Positions 11,231-41,384 of a stretch of DNA of 64,000 nucleotides are shown here, in pieces. This stretch comes from Apophysomyces variabilis (lineage: Eukaryota > Mucoromycota > Mucoromycetes > Mucorales > Mucoraceae): contig MZZL01000409.1 of NCBI GenBank assembly GCA_002749535.1, positions 1,867,608 through 1,931,607 of the forward strand, in the 5' to 3' direction. A program made the position numbers and the translations under genes. The notes below the pieces were generated by a model. It saw nothing but the letters and a program-made list of their open reading frames with translations. It was not told where the DNA came from and did not search any database. Within the stretch, counting starts at the first letter, position 1. Each line of letters starts with the position of its first letter.

Positions 11231-11312
11231 TGAGGACTGCGAGATTCGAACTCGCGCCACCGAAGTGAACAGGGCCTAAACCTGTCGCCTTAGACCGCTC
11301 GGCCAAATCCCC
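11231..11312 (-). tRNA. tRNA-Leu (anticodon UAG)
   Basis: The minus strand folds into a type II tRNA of about 82 nt. The acceptor stem pairs GGGGATT with AGTCCTC, with G-T wobbles. The D-arm carries TGGCCGAGCGGTC, the anticodon stem is ACAGG/CCTGT with loop TTTAGGC, there is a long variable arm (TCACTTCGGTG), and the T-arm is GCGAG-TTCGAAT-CTCGC. The anticodon is TAG, decoding CUN leucine. No intron and no encoded CCA. A box B-type GTTCGAATC is present. Confidence 0.93.
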
Positions 11313-29929: not shown

Positions 29930-30858
29930 TCAAGGTTGCTCTCTGTTACGGCATTTGTCCCAACAATTGTGATAATGCCGAACAAAACCTTCAAAGTCGC
30001 TCAGCTTCAAACTATTGGAAGCCTCACTGATTCTTGTCATCAGTGTCTCGGTTTCCAGGAACTTTTTACGGTTTACTTTACTCTTAATCACTAACCAAAG
30101 CTGTTCGATTGAATTGAGCTTAGGAGAATAGGAAGGCAAATTGATGCAACAATAACCACAAGATTCCATATATTTTGCTATATCAACCGATTTATGGATT
30201 AGAGAATTATCCATCACGAGGTAATGTCCTTTCCAATGCGGATAATAGTTCATTTCATCCATCGTGGCTTTTCGAAAACTAACGTAGTGGTCCCGTAACC
30301 GTCCCTTTGCTCACTTGCCCAACATCTTCTCCTAGCTTTCTCTTTTTATTGAGTGGAGGCTGAGGAAGGCTGAGGCTGCGTTTTAATCAGACCTTGGGCA
30401 GAAATCGCACCTAAAAATGGTTGCTGTTTTGACTCATGTTTTGGGAACTGTGCCCATTGCAGCGGAATCTTTCTTTAATCATGCCATACTACGTTTCAAA
30501 TTAATATGAAACGCAGATTCACCAAGAAAGACGCAATTAGTCGTAAAATCCATGTCTGTTTCTTCCCATTTACATAGTCAACCCAGGCAGTCTTGTATTT
30601 TTTCCTCGCTGTTCCAGTCTATTAGTTGAAACCGAGCTTTTTTGAGAGACAAGTTGCAATGTTTTTTTTTCTACTTTTGGAGACCTTTAATTCTGTGAAT
30701 GGCTGTCTTAGGTACTTCATCACCTCGTCCAATTACTACCAAAGGGTTCGCATCAATGCACTCAAGAATAAACTTTTGTGCTCCTCATTAAGAATGTGTA
30801 AAAAACCAGTCTTTCTATGTTTTTAAAGATACTATTAAGATCCCTCTCGTACTGTTCA

Positions 30859-32628: not shown

Positions 32629-33847
32629 TTACAATACAAGGGGTAATAGACACATCGACAGTATCCATAAAACATATAAGGGTATCGAAGGTATCAGGAC
32701 ATGTGCTCCAGATTTGGGAACTCCTGTTTCATTCATTAAAACGGAGGCAGTGCCCAGGTAATGCGAAGTCTTTGTTGGGCTAGCGCCAGTGGCAAGTAAT
32801 GGTTGTTCAGCCGATAACACCGTATCGATAAGATGAATAACGCCATTAGTCGTTATTATATCTGCAAGGAAAATGGAGGCTTTATCATTGAGGTTGTTTC
32901 CAATCACTTGTCTTTTGCCATCCGCGGTACTACTGAATGCAACTGTTGATCGATCATAATTGGTTTGCAGCACAGTGGGCTCTTGCGCGAATAGTTTGCT
33001 CGAGAGATAGATGCCATCAATAACTTGATATTTTACATTGTGAACAAGGATACCAAAAGGCATATTCGAACCATTAGCAACGCTCCATGCTTTGTTGATA
33101 GGTGCAAGGATGGTTTTGTTGTTCTGGGAAACCAGTGCCGTCAAGTTGAGTTGCTTGAGCAACCTTTCGTATGTTTCAAGCTCCGGTAACTCCGATATTG
33201 TATCCATGCTGTTGCGTGGCGCCTGCAAAACGTGGTCAATGACATGAATGATGCCTATGGTGGAGATTAAAAAATCATGTGGCGCGGGGATAAGCGGACT
33301 GGTTGATTTTCTATTTTACCATTGCTGCAAACGATGTCTTTGGATACTATCAAGGCTGAAGTCACTCCACCTTTAATTCCAACCATCGTTGGATCTACAT
33401 CTGCAGGACCAGTAACGAGGCCTGAGACATTCAATGTCATGATATATCGTTGTTGTTGCAGTAATGTTGTACTGTTGTAAATGTCGGGCAGGACATGGTA
33501 CATTAGCTTGTGTACGATTTCTGTCGGTTTACTGAAATTAAGCAAATTGGAAGCCACTGCAGTCTGAACAGCGCTGTCTGAAGGGAGCAGGAGTGTAATG
33601 TTTTTCCGATGGGTCAATACGTCAATAATGGCGTTATCATCCCAATTCGACTTTGTCAGGGAGGTGAACAATGTCTGTAACTGGATTGAGTATGCTGGTA
33701 TGCGTTTCAATTGCAATTATTTCCTACATGATTGGGACCACTGGCTATCTGTAGATTTTGCCATATCGTATGAGTGGCGTTTGTTGTTTTATTTGAAATA
33801 GCAGCGCATACAGTGCAAAGAATGACGAGGAGAAACAGACAAACCAT
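32629..33847 (-). CDS. Secreted/GPI-type protein with two fasciclin (FAS1) domains
   Basis: Three exons. The start at 33847 opens a signal peptide (MVCLFLLVILCTVCA). The first intron removes about 33738-33683 and joins GPNH to TLFTSL. FAS1 domain 1 has ITLLLPSDSAVQ, KLMYHVLPD and, across an intron at about 33312-33248, CSNG-IIHVIDHVL. Domain 2 has KTILAPINKAW, VKYQVIDG and NGVIHLIDTVL. The C-terminus is a hydrophobic tail (LYVLWILSMCLLPLVL), compatible with a GPI signal. Fasciclin domains mediate adhesion at the cell surface or wall; here that is inferred. The long upstream in-frame extension to 33967 includes another hydrophobic stretch and is less likely to be the start. Confidence 0.9.
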
Positions 33848-34222
33848 GGAACATAGCCAAAGAAAAGAAAAGGAAGAAAAAATAAAAATCAAATACTTCA
33901 CCTTAAGGATCGTTACACTATGTGACGTGCGAATTACCGTTTTTCCAGTGTATGTGGAATCCCACAATCACACCGCCAATATCTTCTTTTTTTCTTTCTC
34001 CGTGAAAGAAAGAGTAAGAACATTGAGCATATCAGAACACGTTCTGTCCCCCCTAAATAGCACGATGAAACGAGTTGCAGCTAAATATTGGGAGATGATA
34101 TTCAAGAGAGTAGAAAAAACTGTACTGCAACCCTAATCTTCAATGAACTCAATTAAAGAGAAGTTCGTCCTTGATATTATCACTAACAAGTTATGACATA
34201 ATATTCTCTAACTGAATACTAT
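33848..34222. other. Spacer downstream of the Fanzor gene
   Basis: Mostly AT-rich. It is the 3' flank of the Fanzor frame (minus strand) and the 5' flank of the fasciclin gene. In known Fanzor/TnpB loci the guide RNA is produced from the region overlapping or following the 3' end of the nuclease gene, so a guide RNA could lie here. I could not identify a scaffold by eye. Confidence 0.4.
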
Positions 34223-37200
34223 TTATGTGTTTGCCAATCTAATAAAGGGACCTGGTCGTCGATTGGCATAATCTCTCATGTGCAAGAAAACGTGCAAAAT
34301 GTTGGATGCAGCCATAGAGTCTCGATTCCAAAACATGGCCGTACATGATTTGTTAGAGCATGTCAGTACGGCATGAATTTTCGAGCCTTCCTGGCCTCGC
34401 GCATCTTTTCCTTCTTTTGCATTCTGTAAGTTTCGCTTCTGACAGACTGGACATATTTGAGATGTAAGATATTCGTCAATGAGGAACACAAAAGTAGGAG
34501 CCTAACAAAAGCGAGCTTAGTCACTCATGGAATTTTATATAACCGCTTATACCTTTCGTTGTCTGGCTTGTTGTTGCAATTCCTTCAAAATAGCTTTGGT
34601 AGGCGCAGCTTTCCGTCCTTTCATGCTCCCAGAGAATGCTCCATTTCCATAAGCAATAATTATGGGCTTCTCTTTTTCCTCCGGCCGATCATTAGCTGAT
34701 AAAGGGACCCATTTCGAATCACTGGACTTGCATGTGTTTTCCTTGCTATATGACCTATATTTTTTGCTCCCATACAATAGTCTTTTTGCAATTTCGCTCC
34801 GTCCTTTCTGTTTCTTAATATACGACTTGAATCTCAATTTACTGTATCTAGGGGAAGTAATGATATTAGAATTATAACAAAGAAAATCCGCCACACCTTT
34901 GATTTCGGCTAAAAAATTCGGAAATAGTGTCATAGTGTTGTATGCAATATCGAATTGCTATAATCAGCTTTTCCAGATCAGATGTCTTCAACGAAGGTGT
35001 TTTATCAATAAGATCTTTGATGGCTGGTTCTTGCTTGTTATATTTTTCTCGAACTCTTGAGGCATGGTTAAACCCACATAAAGAGTAGTATTCTTCGGTA
35101 CTGGTAGAGCGGACCCGGTGTCGAGAATCATGTGTTCCATCTGCTGCAACAAAAACACTGGCCACTCCAGGATCAACTCCCCAGATCAACGCATCGTCAA
35201 ACTTTCCTTTCATATCTGAAGGTGTAAGTGGCTTCTTTTTCGGGTCGTATGGTGCTTTATATTTTTTAAAAATAAATTCAACGTCGGTGCCATCGGTTCG
35301 TATTTTGTCCCTTCAATGAAAGCGTTAATAGAATCCCACATACGAAATATAAAAATCCTACCAAAATAGCACTTTTTCTGTTTCCAAGTCTTCGATAGTC
35401 CTGTACCCAATTTTTGACATGTCGAACAATTTGAAATACACTTCTCTGGCTTCATCGGGCTTGACAGGTGCCAGAGTATCTCGTAGCCCAGATTTGCACA
35501 TCAGCCGACCAAGCGCTTGGTTATCCATTGTGATATGGCGCATTTGGGTGCTATACACAGGCAACATTGTAAATCTTCTCATGCCCCGTGGGTCTGTATG
35601 TTTTTCAGGTTTAAATATCCCAGCATCAATCGCATCCCCTGTCTCCTTGATAAATTCCTGCAGTTTCGACAGAGCTGTTTCCGATATACGAGCGAATTTC
35701 TTTGCCAGAGAAAGTTTCTCTCGCTTTCTGATGGCTATCCTAACATTCACTTCGAGGCTTTTCACGAGTCGCTTTGGCAGTTTCTCTTTGTCGAGGACCT
35801 AAGATATCGTCAGCTCATGTTAAGTTTGAATACCGTTGTCGACATACCTTATCTACCATTCGATGAATGTACCCTGGGGAGACGTACTTTTGAGCTGTGG
35901 GCTCGGCAATAAATATCTTTTGTTCAAGACGCTTAAGCACTTGAAAGAACCAAGGAAGGAAGAGGTGGGGCTCCGCATTGAGTTTTGTCTCGTCAATTTC
36001 CGTAATACCTATTGACTGCTGTAGAAACTCGACGCAAGACTTGACATAATCACGATTGTGTCTATTGTCTGTAATGCTTTTGGGCCAGGGCGCTTCTGTA
36101 CCACATGCTTTTTTGTATACAAAGTTTGCCAATAATCTTCGCTCCGCCACGGTGGATTTCCATCGGAATGCTTCATCCTTGTCGTCAGACATGCGGACTA
36201 AAAGATATTGAATTGTCTTTGGCTCGAAGTTTGCTGTCAAGTGATTTCGGATTGCTTCCTCGTACTCTTGTGCAGCGGAGGAGATTACGGTCATGTAACC
36301 TCTGGACCGGAATTTTGTTTCTTTATATTCAGGGACAGAGACCTTGAAACGCAGATAAGCTTCTTGAAGACTTTCATTGGCATTTTTCCCCTCGCCGGCA
36401 ACCATAGAAAATATACTGTAGCATAGGTCATGCGTAATGGGTGGAATATTCTGATTTTCGGAGAGTAGTTGAACAAAGAAGAAGTTGGCAAACAGCGAAC
36501 CAACATAAGTCACATCTCGTATGTGTTTGACAACATCTTCGATGGACCTGACAAACTCCGCAGAACGACAGGTGTTTGCCAATGACGTCTTGATGACACT
36601 TGTTCGCTTGAAGTTTTTTGGTGGCTTCCTTTTCTTCGCATGGTCTTGGCAGAGCTTACTTGTCCTCCGTTGATGGTCTGTTCCACCGCAAGTACTGCAC
36701 CGTAAAGTACTGCCTGATGCAATTCTCTTTTCTTGCTTGTCTTCCTGTAATTTAGCTTTTGCATCAAATTTCGCATTCCGCTTAGCATAAGCCTTCTCAG
36801 CCTTGACCAATGCTTTTGACTTTTTGCCCGTGGATGGCCCCGGATCATAGCCTGCGTCCAAAGTAGCTTCTGTCGGTGGCACTATCGCCATGTTAAGGCC
36901 AATGGAAATTCAATGAAACACTGTGAAATAGATACCTATTTTTAACGTCTGCAGTTGTTCGTCTGCCCATGTTCCTTGCTTAGGACTGAAGGTGTCTTGA
37001 AAATCCTCCTCCAACGTGTCATTTGCTTTCTCTTTCCCTTTTCCTTTTGAGATTCCTACTATGGGTAAAATGTGAGTGTAATGGAATATGTTATAGCTTG
37101 TTCTGCTCTTACGGAGTTTGGCCAGATCTTGTGGTACAATGGATGGCCGATTGTTTTCGTCCAAATCTGTAATTTCGTTTTTTGTGCCTTTGTATTGCCA

Positions 37201-37443
37201 GTATTCCTTCATTAACTCAAATAATATAACTCAAGAAAAGTATGACATACCACTTTGCTCTTCTGAGCTTGGATCTTCTGGAGCCTGGATGATATCTTTC
37301 TGATCGATGCAAGAAGTAGACACAGTTTCTGAGGGATCTGGCTCTACTTGTAGCCTGTTTGTTCGGGTAAAGAATGATGTAATCAAGGTCTGGTTTGGAG
37401 GTAATGGTTTGGAATTAATTCTAGGGCGTTTGCGAGGAGGCAT
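34223..37443 (-). CDS. Fanzor (eukaryotic TnpB-like RNA-guided nuclease), intact frame
   Basis: Seven exons join to exactly 968 codons (967 aa plus stop): 37443-37251, 37187-36936, 36881-35848, 35798-35362, 35310-34897, 34847-34553, 34501-34223. N-terminus: basic PPRKRPR (NLS-like) and QTLITSFF at 18-25 (PIP-box-like). A CxxC knuckle lies at about 210-229. Residues 639-657 read WDKIRTDGTDVEFIFKKYK, as expected before RuvC. RuvC-I is IWGVDPGV with D685. At the usual RuvC-II position the sequence is IIAYGNGAFS (about 839-848) without glutamate; instead DEYLTS gives E885, as in Fanzors with a relocated glutamate. The zinc ribbon is C892/C895 and C923/C928. RuvC-III is NRDSMAASNI with D936. All key residues are kept, so it may be active. 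Fanzors use a guide RNA to cut DNA and are carried by eukaryotic transposons. Function here is inferred. Confidence 0.92.
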
Positions 37444-37900
37444 GGTTAAACAACAGGGAAGAAAGGAAGAATGAACAGATGCGAAAAAAAAAGGAAAACC
37501 ATTGCCACCATGATTGTGACGACATAAAAACAGAAGACCTATCAGTTCTGTTTCGAGAATAAAGACACGAAACATCCTTTGACAATAGATAACCTATGCC
37601 TGTTGTATATGAACAGAACCTCAGTAGATTCCCAGAAGACCTATTTCACGACAACAAATGCTGTTGTAGAAATCTGTATCTAAACTATAAGTAAGCATAA
37701 CGATGGTTGATTGAAGTTTGAGACACAGCTTATGAGGCAGGCAACCCATTAACATCAACGATGCATTGCTCTATTATTGCACACGACGCAATCATCCCGA
37801 GAAATCTCAATCGTCTACTCTAGCTCGCCTAAAGAACGCATGTTCATGAATCTCATTGATCCTAATCAACTGCACATGCTTTACAATATACATGATGTCA
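37444..37900. other. Spacer between Fanzor and Helitron remnant
   Basis: AT-rich; it must hold the Fanzor promoter. No TATA box was obvious. An in-frame extension of the Fanzor frame (to 37575) exists, but the ATG at 37443, directly before the basic NLS-like start, is the better choice. Confidence 0.4.
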
Positions 37901-38530
37901 CGTAAATTCTCCTATGCATTGTTTTCATCGCCGGGGATGACTACGGATACATACCTGCATAAAGGCAGGACAATATCCAGTCTGAAAAAGCAAATGGCCT
38001 TATTCAAAAGAATAAATCTGACATGAATGTGAAAGTATAAGAACCTCCTACAGCATTTACGATGGACTCATCAAGCTGAACACCCATGGATGAAAATGCA
38101 AAGACGTTATTGTATGCCCTAATGTTCAGTCTGAACTGCTTTCCTGCCTCAGTATCAGCCGTAAGCAATCTAAGCAAAGGTTCTGGAGGTGGGGATAAGG
38201 GCGGAAGTCTTATCTTTCCCTGACGACAGCACATGTTGAAGACAGGGTGTTCCATACTGGAGCGATGCGCTCTCTCCCCACAGCCACATAGTGGCGCCAC
38301 AATGTTGGCAATTAGCCTGACGTGAAGATAGGATATGTCTGCGATTGATGATCTCACGCCCACGAATGTTAGTTTTGAGAAAAGTACTATAACAGGCTAT
38401 CCTATTACTATCAATAGGTGCATCCTGGACAGAAGCAGTCAAAAAAAACGCCTCAGTTTCCGATTCCTCATGAGGAAGATCATTGCGATCATTGACATGC
38501 TGACTATCTTCAGCTTCTACAAAACTTAAT
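37900..38530 (-). pseudogene. Helitron Rep/helicase-like N-terminal region, frameshifted
   Basis: Minus strand. An acidic linker precedes CQHCGATMWL (frame of 38442-38170). Then ERAHRSSMEHPVFNMCCRQG, RLPPLSPPPEPLLRLLTA and FRLNIRAYNNVFAFSSMGVQLDES continue in another frame (38363-38004). These are the conserved signatures (CxxCGA-x-W...ER, CCxxGK-like, FRxxIRxYN...AFxSxG) that precede the Rep domain of Helitron helicase proteins. The change of frame between TMWL and ER is a small indel. GYCPAFMQ near 37950 may be the continuing PAFMQ-type motif. No Rep HUH motif or helicase was found, so the element is truncated. Confidence 0.75.
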
Positions 38531-39561
38531 CGAATACAACGTCTTAATGAAGAAGAATCTCATAAAATTTGCGCACTATAATTTCCACGTCATGTTGATT
38601 TATCTACCTTCTGGCAGTCCTAATACTGAAAAACTGTCCGTTTGGAGCACTGCGTGCAAGATTTCTGGGATTACAGGGACATAAGCGGCTTGTAATTCGG
38701 GAATGGGTGGTAAGATTGCAGTGACTACAGCGTGTTGGCATCTTTTCGTCAATAAGGTTATTGTTATAAAACGTATATATGGAACAAAGAGGACGTAAAG
38801 TCTTTTGAAAAAGAAGTGTAGAAGTTTTATCGTCCCTCCTTTTTATCAGCAGAGCAGAAAAAGCAATTAAGGTTGAGACAATAGTGACAAACTGCCTTTT
38901 ATGTATTAAAATTTGAGGCTGTACAGCAAGTGAACTGCCTTTTTTGTGAGTTACGATTTTACTTTGCTATTTTATTATGACCAGCTTTGGTTTGCTCGCT
39001 TCGCAGCGCACCAATGCTTCCCCACCCAGCCCCCCAACCCCCCACGCCGCCCACACCGCCCACCACCCACCGCCCACCGCCCGCCCGTTTGGTGTTGGAT
39101 AAGGGCATATTCAATTGGCAATAACAAAATGAAAATACAATCATTCAAGATCCCAGTTTCCCGAAGACTTGACTCCAAAAATTCAGGTTGACATGCTATG
39201 AAGAAGCTACAGGCGATTGCAATGTTGTCGTCAATATCAGTGATAGCATTATCATCATCAGCAACAGCAGTAAGAGGAATACTAAAATGAAACATACATT
39301 AATATTCAGCAAAGTAAAAGCATTCTGGAAAACTATACTATATCTATTCAGTTGAGGAATATTAAGACGCAGAGTCAGCTCCCTTCCCTCAGTATCAATG
39401 TGACATTAGATATGACGACCATCACTGTACTCTTCATCTATTCCACTGAAGCCAACACTATTACTATGTATATAAGTTAATCGAGAATACATATATGATG
39501 AAGCTATTGTAATTTGAAATTGTTTATATCTTTGAAATTACCTATGCATGACAGATGCTTC
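38531..39561. other. Helitron-internal or decayed sequence with a C-rich block
   Basis: No coding sequence could be assigned between the two Helitron coding pieces. It contains the C-rich/G-rich block at about 39010-39090 (listed separately) and AT-rich DNA. It may be intronic sequence of the Helitron gene or an insertion. Confidence 0.35.
39010..39090 (-). repeat. G-rich block with G-quadruplex potential (minus strand)
   Basis: On the plus strand the block is made of CCCACC, CCGCCC and CCCCCC units. The minus strand therefore has many GGG runs separated by 1-4 bases, enough for several overlapping G-quadruplexes. It is strikingly GC-rich compared with its AT-rich flanks. Confidence 0.8.
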
Positions 39562-39909
39562 TTAAGGTTGAGTACTGTTATTTGCCAACAAAGAAGATGG
39601 ACCAACTATAGAAGCCAATACAGGAGATAAATCAGGCGGTCCCTGTAGAAAAGTGTGAGTAACAGTCGTATAATGAAATGGGCAAAGCTCGCTATGAATA
39701 TCAGCATGATCAACTCCATTGCAATGGGAGCAATGAGCAGCCAAAGGCTCATTCATCGGAGCAATGCCACTGCTATGTGGAGTAATTGTGACAAACTGGA
39801 AGAACTGAGGATTGGAATCTTTAGCGTGCAATCTAGCAGGGTTAGCTTGACATAACCTACTGGTTGACCGAGAATGGTCAGTTCCAAAGCATGAAGGGCA
39901 AAATGGCAT
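39562..39909 (-). CDS. N-terminal exon of the Helitron-type ORF with two zinc-knuckle motifs
   Basis: A frame of 115 codons begins MPFCPSCFGTDHSRS at 39909. It carries two related knuckles: C-P-S-C-F-G-T-D-H...LC near the start and C-S-H-C-N-G-V-D-H...LCP about 55 residues later. The first is clearly related to the knuckle at about residue 210 of the Fanzor (C-x2-C-x-G-T-D-H-x-R-x-T-S-x-L-C-Q). The position upstream of the Helitron Rep-type sequence on the same strand suggests it is the 5' exon of that gene. It ends in a Ser/Pro-rich stretch and a stop at 39562. Without the connecting exons it is best regarded as part of a broken gene. Confidence 0.55.
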   Translation of the reverse strand: MPFCPSCFGTDHSRSTSRLCQANPARLHAKDSNPQFFQFVTITPHSSGIAPMNEPLAAHCSHCNGVDHADIHSELCPFHYTTVTHTFLQGPPDLSPVLASIVGPSSLLANNSTQP

Positions 39910-41384
39910 AATAAGAAAGCAAACAATTGATTCTTGTAAAGAGTCTGAAGATGAAGAAGCATAAACAGAGGAAAAATACTATGATGCTTACGCATACCTC
40001 TCTTTTTTTTCAAGGTACCTTCTTAATGCAATTGGAAAGTAGAAAGAGTAGCCTTCCTAATATATTCGCTAATTTTCAAATATGGAAATGAGTTTGAAAA
40101 GGCGACTCAAATGAAACTCTCTGCGAATGAGGCAGCAACGGTATCTGAAAAGTTTGCCTTGAATGGAAGTTTGTGGTCCTCCAACACCTTTTATGTGGGG
40201 CCCAACACCAAAATGACATTTTTTTAGTAAAGGTGAGAGAGAGAGAAGAGAGAGAGATAATGTAGAGAAGAGAGAGAGAAGAGAGTAGAGAGAGAGAGAC
40301 TAATCACTAATCACTAATCACTAATAAATTCAGTCCTGTTAAGGAACATATTTGCTATTGACCATAATCGCCTTCAGAACACTGTCTAACTTACAAATAT
40401 ATTATACTGAAACCTTTCCGATTCATAGTAAATCCCACTAATAGGAAATCTTGAATTGCCAGAAACTCTATGAGTGACCTTTTCGCTCGCCCAATCACAG
40501 GGCCGCGGTAGAAAGGACCCTGATGCAAAAAAACTTTAATGACGGAAAGAAAATTCCGCAATCTTTTGAATCTTTTAAAACCGCATCAAGCCAATCAACA
40601 AACATAGTCCATTCACCGTATGATATAAAATACGTCATACCGTGACCTAGAAGTTGGTTTGGGGAAACAGGCGACAAAACGTAAGCGTTTTGAATAGTTT
40701 GTGTAACATAACCCGTACGTACAAGTATGATATCTCGCCTTGTACCTTAGCACGAGAGTCCGACGTTTTATAGGGAAAAAGGAGAGGCGTTTTTTCCATC
40801 CGCTTGCTGTTATCGCTGCTCTTAGTCACTGCTTCCCTCTTCCTCTTATTTTCACTTCTTTCCAGCAATGAACTGTGCAATATGTAGCTTGTCGTTACAT
40901 AGATGGTCTTATTTTCAAAGTTCAGATGAATCACATGTGCAACGTAAATCAAATTTAACCCTTATAGCACACAAAGCTACGTTCGCTTATATTGCCCGTA
41001 ACCTTTGAAGGAGGGACCAGATAAAGTCTCCCCTTCAATGGTTTCCTTTAGCAGCAGCTAACATTATGCTTTGAGTTCTGCAGATTTATATACAAATGTT
41101 TGTTAAAGCCTGAAGATATAATCTATCACAGATAAAGTCTTTTTGTTCGGCGTGTTGTTTCAGACATTACGGGCTATATATGCAATTAATAAGAAAATGA
41201 CTTAATAGTCTAGCACTAAACAGGGTCGGACTGGAAGAAGAAATACCGGTTGTGTAGGTTGGTATATGCTAGAATTTCTTGCAGATAACTGTTAGGATGC
41301 TCATGAGGCGTGACGTGCAGCAACGCGAATTTAGCTTTGCTTGGAAGCATTGATCCGTCCGTTGCTGTACAACACCACTTCGTC
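39910..41384. other. Spacer with short repeats and an unrecognised minus-strand gene candidate
   Basis: Contains a GA-rich microsatellite (about 40226-40300) followed by four near-copies of ACTAATC (about 40291-40325). A minus-strand candidate at 40495-40952 could be two exons joined across about 40743-40651, reading KTSDSRAK to GHGMTYFISYGEW. I know no matching family, so it is left uncalled. Confidence 0.4.
40226..40326. repeat. GA microsatellite plus ACTAATC minisatellite
   Basis: A purine-only GA/GAA tract (gagagagagagaagagagag-like) is interrupted by short TA-containing breaks. It passes directly into tandem 7-mers ACTAATC (at least three perfect copies, a fourth partial). It lies to the right of the Helitron-type exon and may mark an old element boundary. 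Confidence 0.75.

Follow-up and report, generated by a model that had tools for sequence, protein, structure and literature searches.

Apophysomyces variabilis carries, in the 64,000-nt stretch analyzed here (the window, C95:1867608-1931607 of the 38.7-Mb genome), an intact, spliced Fanzor1 gene that is best explained, at a probability of roughly 0.7, as a passenger of a Helitron-like element whose RepHel gene has been internally deleted. The best protein match comes from Apophysomyces ossiformis (95% over 71%). The first-pass annotation of this locus identified the Fanzor, an identification that stands, and missed the Helitron-like carrier, with its repeat of ~4.8 kb, its RepHel piece and its hairpin end. 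The occurrence of Fanzor1s in Helitrons is itself already published, for Chlamydomonas (PMC3627910).

The gene occupies 34223..37443 on the minus strand. Rebuilding this strand joins seven exons into 2904 nt, or 968 codons with a single, terminal stop (34225-34223), for a protein of 967 aa, as the first-pass annotation had proposed. All six introns are GT-AG, with lengths of 63, 54, 49, 51, 49, and 51 nt. Exon 1 (37251..37443) and exon 2 (36936..37187) stand on the gene model without support from homologs. The model and homologous proteins together define exon 3 (35848..36881), which encodes an N-terminal zinc-knuckle-like motif (CSTCGGTDHQRRTSKLC, 36699-36649), and exon 6 (34553..34847), which encodes AYGNG and no glutamate; exon 4 (35362..35798) is additionally supported by diverged copies. 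Exon 5 (34897..35310), with the RuvC-I motif GVDPG, rests on model, homologs and profile, and exon 7 (34223..34501), with the zinc ribbon C892-C928 (34453-34343) and the RuvC-III aspartate, on the model, PDB and Pfam searches, and the profile. Enumeration of splice sites found other choices that keep the frame at junctions 1, 3, 5, and 6, and homologous proteins were therefore used to choose among them. The accepted intron 5 lies beyond the range of the enumeration and was found by reading the alignment of copies; another candidate for this junction, with its end at 34958, was discarded since several copies lack the AG.

Homologs were sought with residues 500-967 as query, scoring only the 7995 candidates that shared most words. 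Seven proteins, all of them predicted, are 32–45% identical to the window protein over those residues; they come from Apophysomyces sp., Helicostylum pulchrum (944 aa), Mucor flavus, Rhizomucor pusillus, Umbelopsis ramanniana, and Thamnidium elegans, the seventh being P0011. Junctions 3–6 are colinear with these proteins, and in the alignment with P0009 (Apophysomyces sp.) none of the four has a gap. One extra residue is found at junction 3 in P0013 and two at junctions 4 and 6 in P0010–P0012, and some homologs do not have the stretch at one or another of these junctions. Eight diverged copies in the same genome keep GT-AG at 30 of 32 introns 3–6, the two exceptions being alignment gaps, and the four-fold sites of these copies are only 22–36% identical to those of the window. 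Given the homologous proteins and the retention of splice sites in diverged families, exons 3–7 can be regarded as solid.

Judged by its sequence, the protein is a Fanzor1, Fanzors being a eukaryotic class of RNA-guided DNA nucleases. A single-sequence search of the PDB matches nothing with E ≤ 10 except SpuFz1 (7.4e-7) and GtFz1 (1.1e-4); a profile built from the window protein and the seven homologs additionally picks up a TnpB (E 0.001) and three sequences of Cas12g (0.027). In the profile alignment D685 (codon 35174-35172), E885 (34474-34472), and D936 (34321-34319) fall on the catalytic positions D383, E541, and D606 of SpuFz1, numbered with an offset of 394 for the fusion, as derived from the numbering of the chain. 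These three residues, along with N385, are named as Mg ligands (PMC10432273). The DEYLTS and WNRD motifs align with DEYKTS and WNRD of SpuFz1 at 23.8 bits, and GVDPG aligns with a SpuFz1 stretch ending in VIDPN as a separate, weak stretch (11.9 bits, i-Evalue 0.53), on which the placement of D685 depends; the DPG of GtFz1 lies at the same place as GVDPG, at 4.2 bits. The first-pass annotation had called a Fanzor with DPG, a relocated glutamate and a RuvC-III aspartate, and the PDB search and the match to Mg-binding residues agree with it; its numbering of D685, E885, C892, C895, C923, C928, and D936 is correct throughout the rebuilt protein. Two hallmarks given for Fanzors, the DPG motif and a glutamate placed six residues ahead of the zinc finger (PMC10711439), are both present, as D685-P-G and E885-x6-C892, with AYGNG lacking a glutamate at the canonical RuvC-II place. 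The published Fanzor1 motif, D-X(125,275)-[TS][TS]XX-[C4]-X(5,50)-RD (PMC3627910), is likewise found when counted on the protein: D685-x202-TSQI-C892, C895, C923, C928, x6, R935 D936. The Pfam Cas12f1-like_TNB family scores 24.8 bits, slightly below its cut-off of 26.3, and an AlphaFold2 model of the homolog P0011, made with seven sequences, has a mean pLDDT of 50.8, with nearly all of RuvC below 50.

Alignment of copies places the Fanzor1 gene inside a repeated element of ~4.8 kb, termed family A, which occupies 34184..38980 on the minus strand and has sharp ends at 38980 and 34187/34184. The 5' end is TCATAATAAAATAGC at 38980, and the 3' end is CTTG (at 34187), 36 nt past the stop codon and followed by TTA (34186-34184). 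Matched by pattern, TTA follows the 3' end in all 29 copies, of which L040 is doubtful. The terminus itself is CTAG in 9/9 family-B copies, and CTTG in 13/15 family-A and 4/4 family-C copies. Directly after the stop codon is a hairpin with a 9-bp stem (34198..34222, minus strand), for which 93.1% of cells are paired in 21 distinct rows from families A and B, as against 30.2–62.4% when the pairing is slid. Changes in these 21 rows are one-sided only, with no two-sided change and no covariation beyond that of shuffles, which score as well. Family C has, by eye, a hairpin of another sequence at the same place. At the 5' end, TC is found in the window, L021, L023, L025, and L038 and is altered in L039; the scan found no 5' end in L022, L024, L033, and L037. 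The clean 5' flanks of L023, L025, and L038 end in TA, and TTA precedes the altered end of L039, which by eye has a 10-bp direct repeat (TTAAGCTTAT) on both flanks; one-ended Helitrons with target site duplications offer a comparison for these flanks (PMC3627910). In the window and L021 another repeat, and not TA, precedes the 5' end.

Pieces of RepHel tie several families of this element to Helitrons. In family A, a 130-aa frame upstream of the gene (38396-38007, minus strand) is an N-terminal remnant of RepHel, being 34–49% identical to same-strand stretches 5' of Helitron_like_N at 12 places (paired by coordinates), one of them within an open frame of 1534 aa on C1. By itself the stretch 38007-38396 has no Pfam match. 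In families B and C it is a Pif1_2B helicase piece, from the C-terminal part of RepHel, that lies upstream of Fanzor on the same strand, at six places: C94, C89, and C92, and also C95:1144174, C83, and C91, the last three found by coordinates when the genome's 40 Pif1_2B matches were set against the listed Fanzor matches. On C70 Pif1_2B lies beside a 3' end only, and on C108 and C116 it is in the opposite orientation to the Fanzor match. Two RepHel-bearing Helitrons, on C73 and on C95 (near 206 kb), cease to be alike immediately past a hairpin, recognized by eye, and CTAG, with T beyond the end, as in family-B Fanzor elements; this Helitron end comes from a single comparison, because C1 stays alike to C73 past it. 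No copy seen in the genome holds both an intact RepHel and a Fanzor. We interpret these arrangements as a Helitron lineage in which Fanzor follows RepHel on its 3' side, families A, B, and C differing in what was deleted internally or truncated at the 5' end.

The termini speak against the Helitron reading in two respects: families A and C mostly end in CTTG and not CTRR, and the constant TTA is not explained by the simple Helitron rule of insertion between A and T. Both features, together with the TA before clean 5' ends and the 10-bp repeat seen by eye around L039, would suit a carrier that is an unclassified or other type of DNA element and has picked up Helitron fragments, the same idea by which the classification of MCi-2 of Mucor circinelloides is left open (PMC3627910). 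Such an origin is unlikely. RepHel pieces recur in several subfamilies, N-terminal in A and C-terminal in B and C, mostly upstream and on the same strand, no terminal inverted repeats were noticed, and family B has both the hairpin and the CTAG end followed by T. A Helitron-like carrier thus remains the preferred reading. The start of the protein is a separate matter, and exons 1-2 (codons 1-148) are offered as a proposal. That the gene is real and begins elsewhere, either at an in-frame ATG 5' of exon 3 (36891), giving ~820 residues, or with exons 1-2 otherwise spliced, is a serious prospect, somewhat short of even odds. None of the seven homologous proteins convincingly covers exons 1-2, and several GT/AG or GC/AG alternatives keep the frame at junction 1. 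Against the majority of the eight other family-A copies, dN/dS is about 1.0 over codons 1-148 (11 replacement, 3 silent) and 0.23 over codons 150-967 (9 replacement, 11 silent), and private changes of the window in its first 149 codons number 4 in 448 sites, not the lowest among copies and a rate no better than that of noncoding sequence. The point in favor of the proposed exon 1 is QTLITSFF, residues 18-25 (37392-37369), beside a basic stretch PRKRPR, which we take to be of the PIP-box-like class. It is identical in all seven family-A copies, window included, that keep this stretch, read at window columns, and this is weak evidence given that the copies are near-identical; a PIP-box-like motif arises by chance in 79 of 20,000 shuffles of residues 1-148 and in 164 of 5000 shuffles of the whole protein.

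The window frame is open, and every other copy examined in this genome, 19 of 19, is broken, which upholds the first-pass description of an intact copy among decayed ones, the latter as regards the copies examined. A Fanzor search of the genome lists 109 matches, a good many being fragments or parts of a single copy. Nine other family-A copies projected on the model each have 2 to 11 frameshifting indels plus stops in the window register; these counts include missing exons, the N-terminal alignment of L033 and L037 is poor, and L039 is without exons 1-2. Ten copies of other families, compared over exons 3-7, each have a frameshifting indel or a stop, stops being the only damage in L027 and L031 and frameshifts the only damage in L030 and L032. 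Three family-B copies share a terminal two-base difference that is a different stop and not damage, and L029, cut by a contig end, was left out of the count. L033, with a large insert, was left out of the alignment of copies used for intron 5, dN/dS, and private changes. Over codons 150-967 the window has 3 private substitutions in 2456 sites, as compared with 17–75 in the eight other family-A copies, where replacement fractions are near the neutral expectation. In a noncoding control (introns plus 1.46 kb upstream) the window again has the fewest of nine, 7 in 1772 (L021, 14/1770; L022, 14/1769). The window copy is probably young, a recent insertion being the simplest reading, because it has the shortest terminal branch of the nine in both coding (codons 150-967) and noncoding sequence. 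Its three private changes in codons 150-967 are too few for selection on the window copy itself to be detected. Domestication as a host gene was considered and rejected, the gene lying wholly inside the repeated element.

Few private changes everywhere in the window copy mean that it has had little time to break, and its frame might accordingly be open only through recent insertion, encoding a Fanzor protein with no present role; that the sequence tests described below show no sign of a guide RNA is in keeping with this. Such a functionless copy is on the unlikely side. Families A and B are 0.68 identical in amino acids at a four-fold identity of 0.35, and therefore point to long purifying selection, and against three diverged groups 46–68% of residues are kept where four-fold sites are 22–36% identical, so that the ancestral lineage was under purifying selection. 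The window Fanzor1 copy may still be active.

Several features lie near the element. Upstream, 38981-40240 is a mosaic repeat common to the window and L021, and in part to L024, whose end (GCGAAGCGAG...CTGG, with T beyond) resembles the 3' end of RepHel-bearing Helitrons. By eye, motifs like the zinc knuckle, C-x2-C-x4-H...C, occur in the Fanzor N-terminus (36699-36649), in a frame close to the element's 5' end (38604-38966), and in the neighboring repeat (39562-39978). Directly downstream of the Fanzor 3' end, minus-strand frames at 32632-33967 resemble a FAS1 (fasciclin) type protein. Further on, a minus-strand frame at 29930-30310 holds LPSYSPKLNSIEQLW, which we take to resemble the C-terminus of a Tc1/mariner-type DDE transposase, and a tRNA-Leu gene was found at 11231-11312, also on the minus strand.

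No guide RNA was found by the sequence tests applied, synonymous constraint at the 3' end being unconvincing and the hairpin being without covariation. A striking four-fold identity of 0.83–0.85 over codons 910-949 in five family-B copies had pointed to an overlapping guide RNA and was not upheld. When all degenerate codons of 905-950 are counted, 19/29 are identical in L026 (p 0.023) and 20/30 in L034 (p 0.014), the best earlier windows of the gene about match these values (20 and 19, respectively), and against family C the constraint is absent, with 7/26 identical. By analogy with SpuFz1, the window gene would make an RNA-guided nuclease. Its guide scaffold would sit at the element's 3' end, in the last exon plus the hairpin, and would overlap that exon because only 36–39 nt follow the stop, and the guide itself would be read from the DNA immediately beyond that end. 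The enzyme would then recognize a donor or target site that is empty and adjoins a short 5' motif; the TA at clean 5' flanks could be such a target-adjacent motif or a target preference. Recognition would favor retention or spread of the element, as has been proposed for TnpB and Fanzor nucleases, and for movement the element would depend on other Helitrons in the genome providing RepHel in trans. Taken as a whole, a Mucorales rolling-circle, Helitron1-like lineage of RepHel followed by Fanzor, with the scaffold at the 3' hairpin, a guide from the flank, and a nuclease that re-cuts empty sites of a copy-and-paste element, perhaps tied to replication forks by its PIP-box-like motif, is a speculative construction that we rate as improbable in full.

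Among characterized systems, SpuFz1 of Spizellomyces punctatus (PDB 8gkh; PMC10432273) shares with the window protein its RuvC D-E-D positions, relocated glutamate, and zinc ribbon. The SpuFz1 locus is ~2.1 kb, with inverted repeats and a single ORF (PMC10432273), whereas the window gene has introns and sits in a Helitron-like element, and the window protein has a longer N-terminal region with a zinc-knuckle-like motif. GtFz1 of Guillardia theta (PDB 9cer; PMC11423790) is alike in the Fanzor1 C-terminal half and zinc ribbon, and differs in having N at the third catalytic position, where the window protein has D936. A parallel in genomic setting is offered by CRe-1,2,3 of Chlamydomonas, multi-exon Fanzor1s in non-autonomous Helitrons with conserved 3' ends and variable 5' ends (PMC3627910). 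These are Helitron2, with asymmetric inverted repeats and a 5' hairpin (PMC3627910), whereas the elements of this genome, with a TC start and a hairpin with CTAG or CTTG at the 3' end, are nearer Helitron1. Fanzor1 elements from the same fungal order, ROr-4, PBl-3, MCi-2, MCi-4, and MCi-5, are assigned to MuDr or left unclassified, and no Mucorales Fanzor1 family is placed in a Helitron in the portions of that source that bear on them (PMC3627910). It was also the one source found in the open-licence literature on Fanzor, Helitron, and Mucor, and that literature yielded none on Fanzor in Mucoromycota.

A Fanzor1 that has an unbroken frame and all of its catalytic residues, standing beside many dead copies, is directly testable. 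Because the same genome links RepHel pieces to several related families of Fanzor, the part played by Fanzor in a rolling-circle transposon is also open to test.
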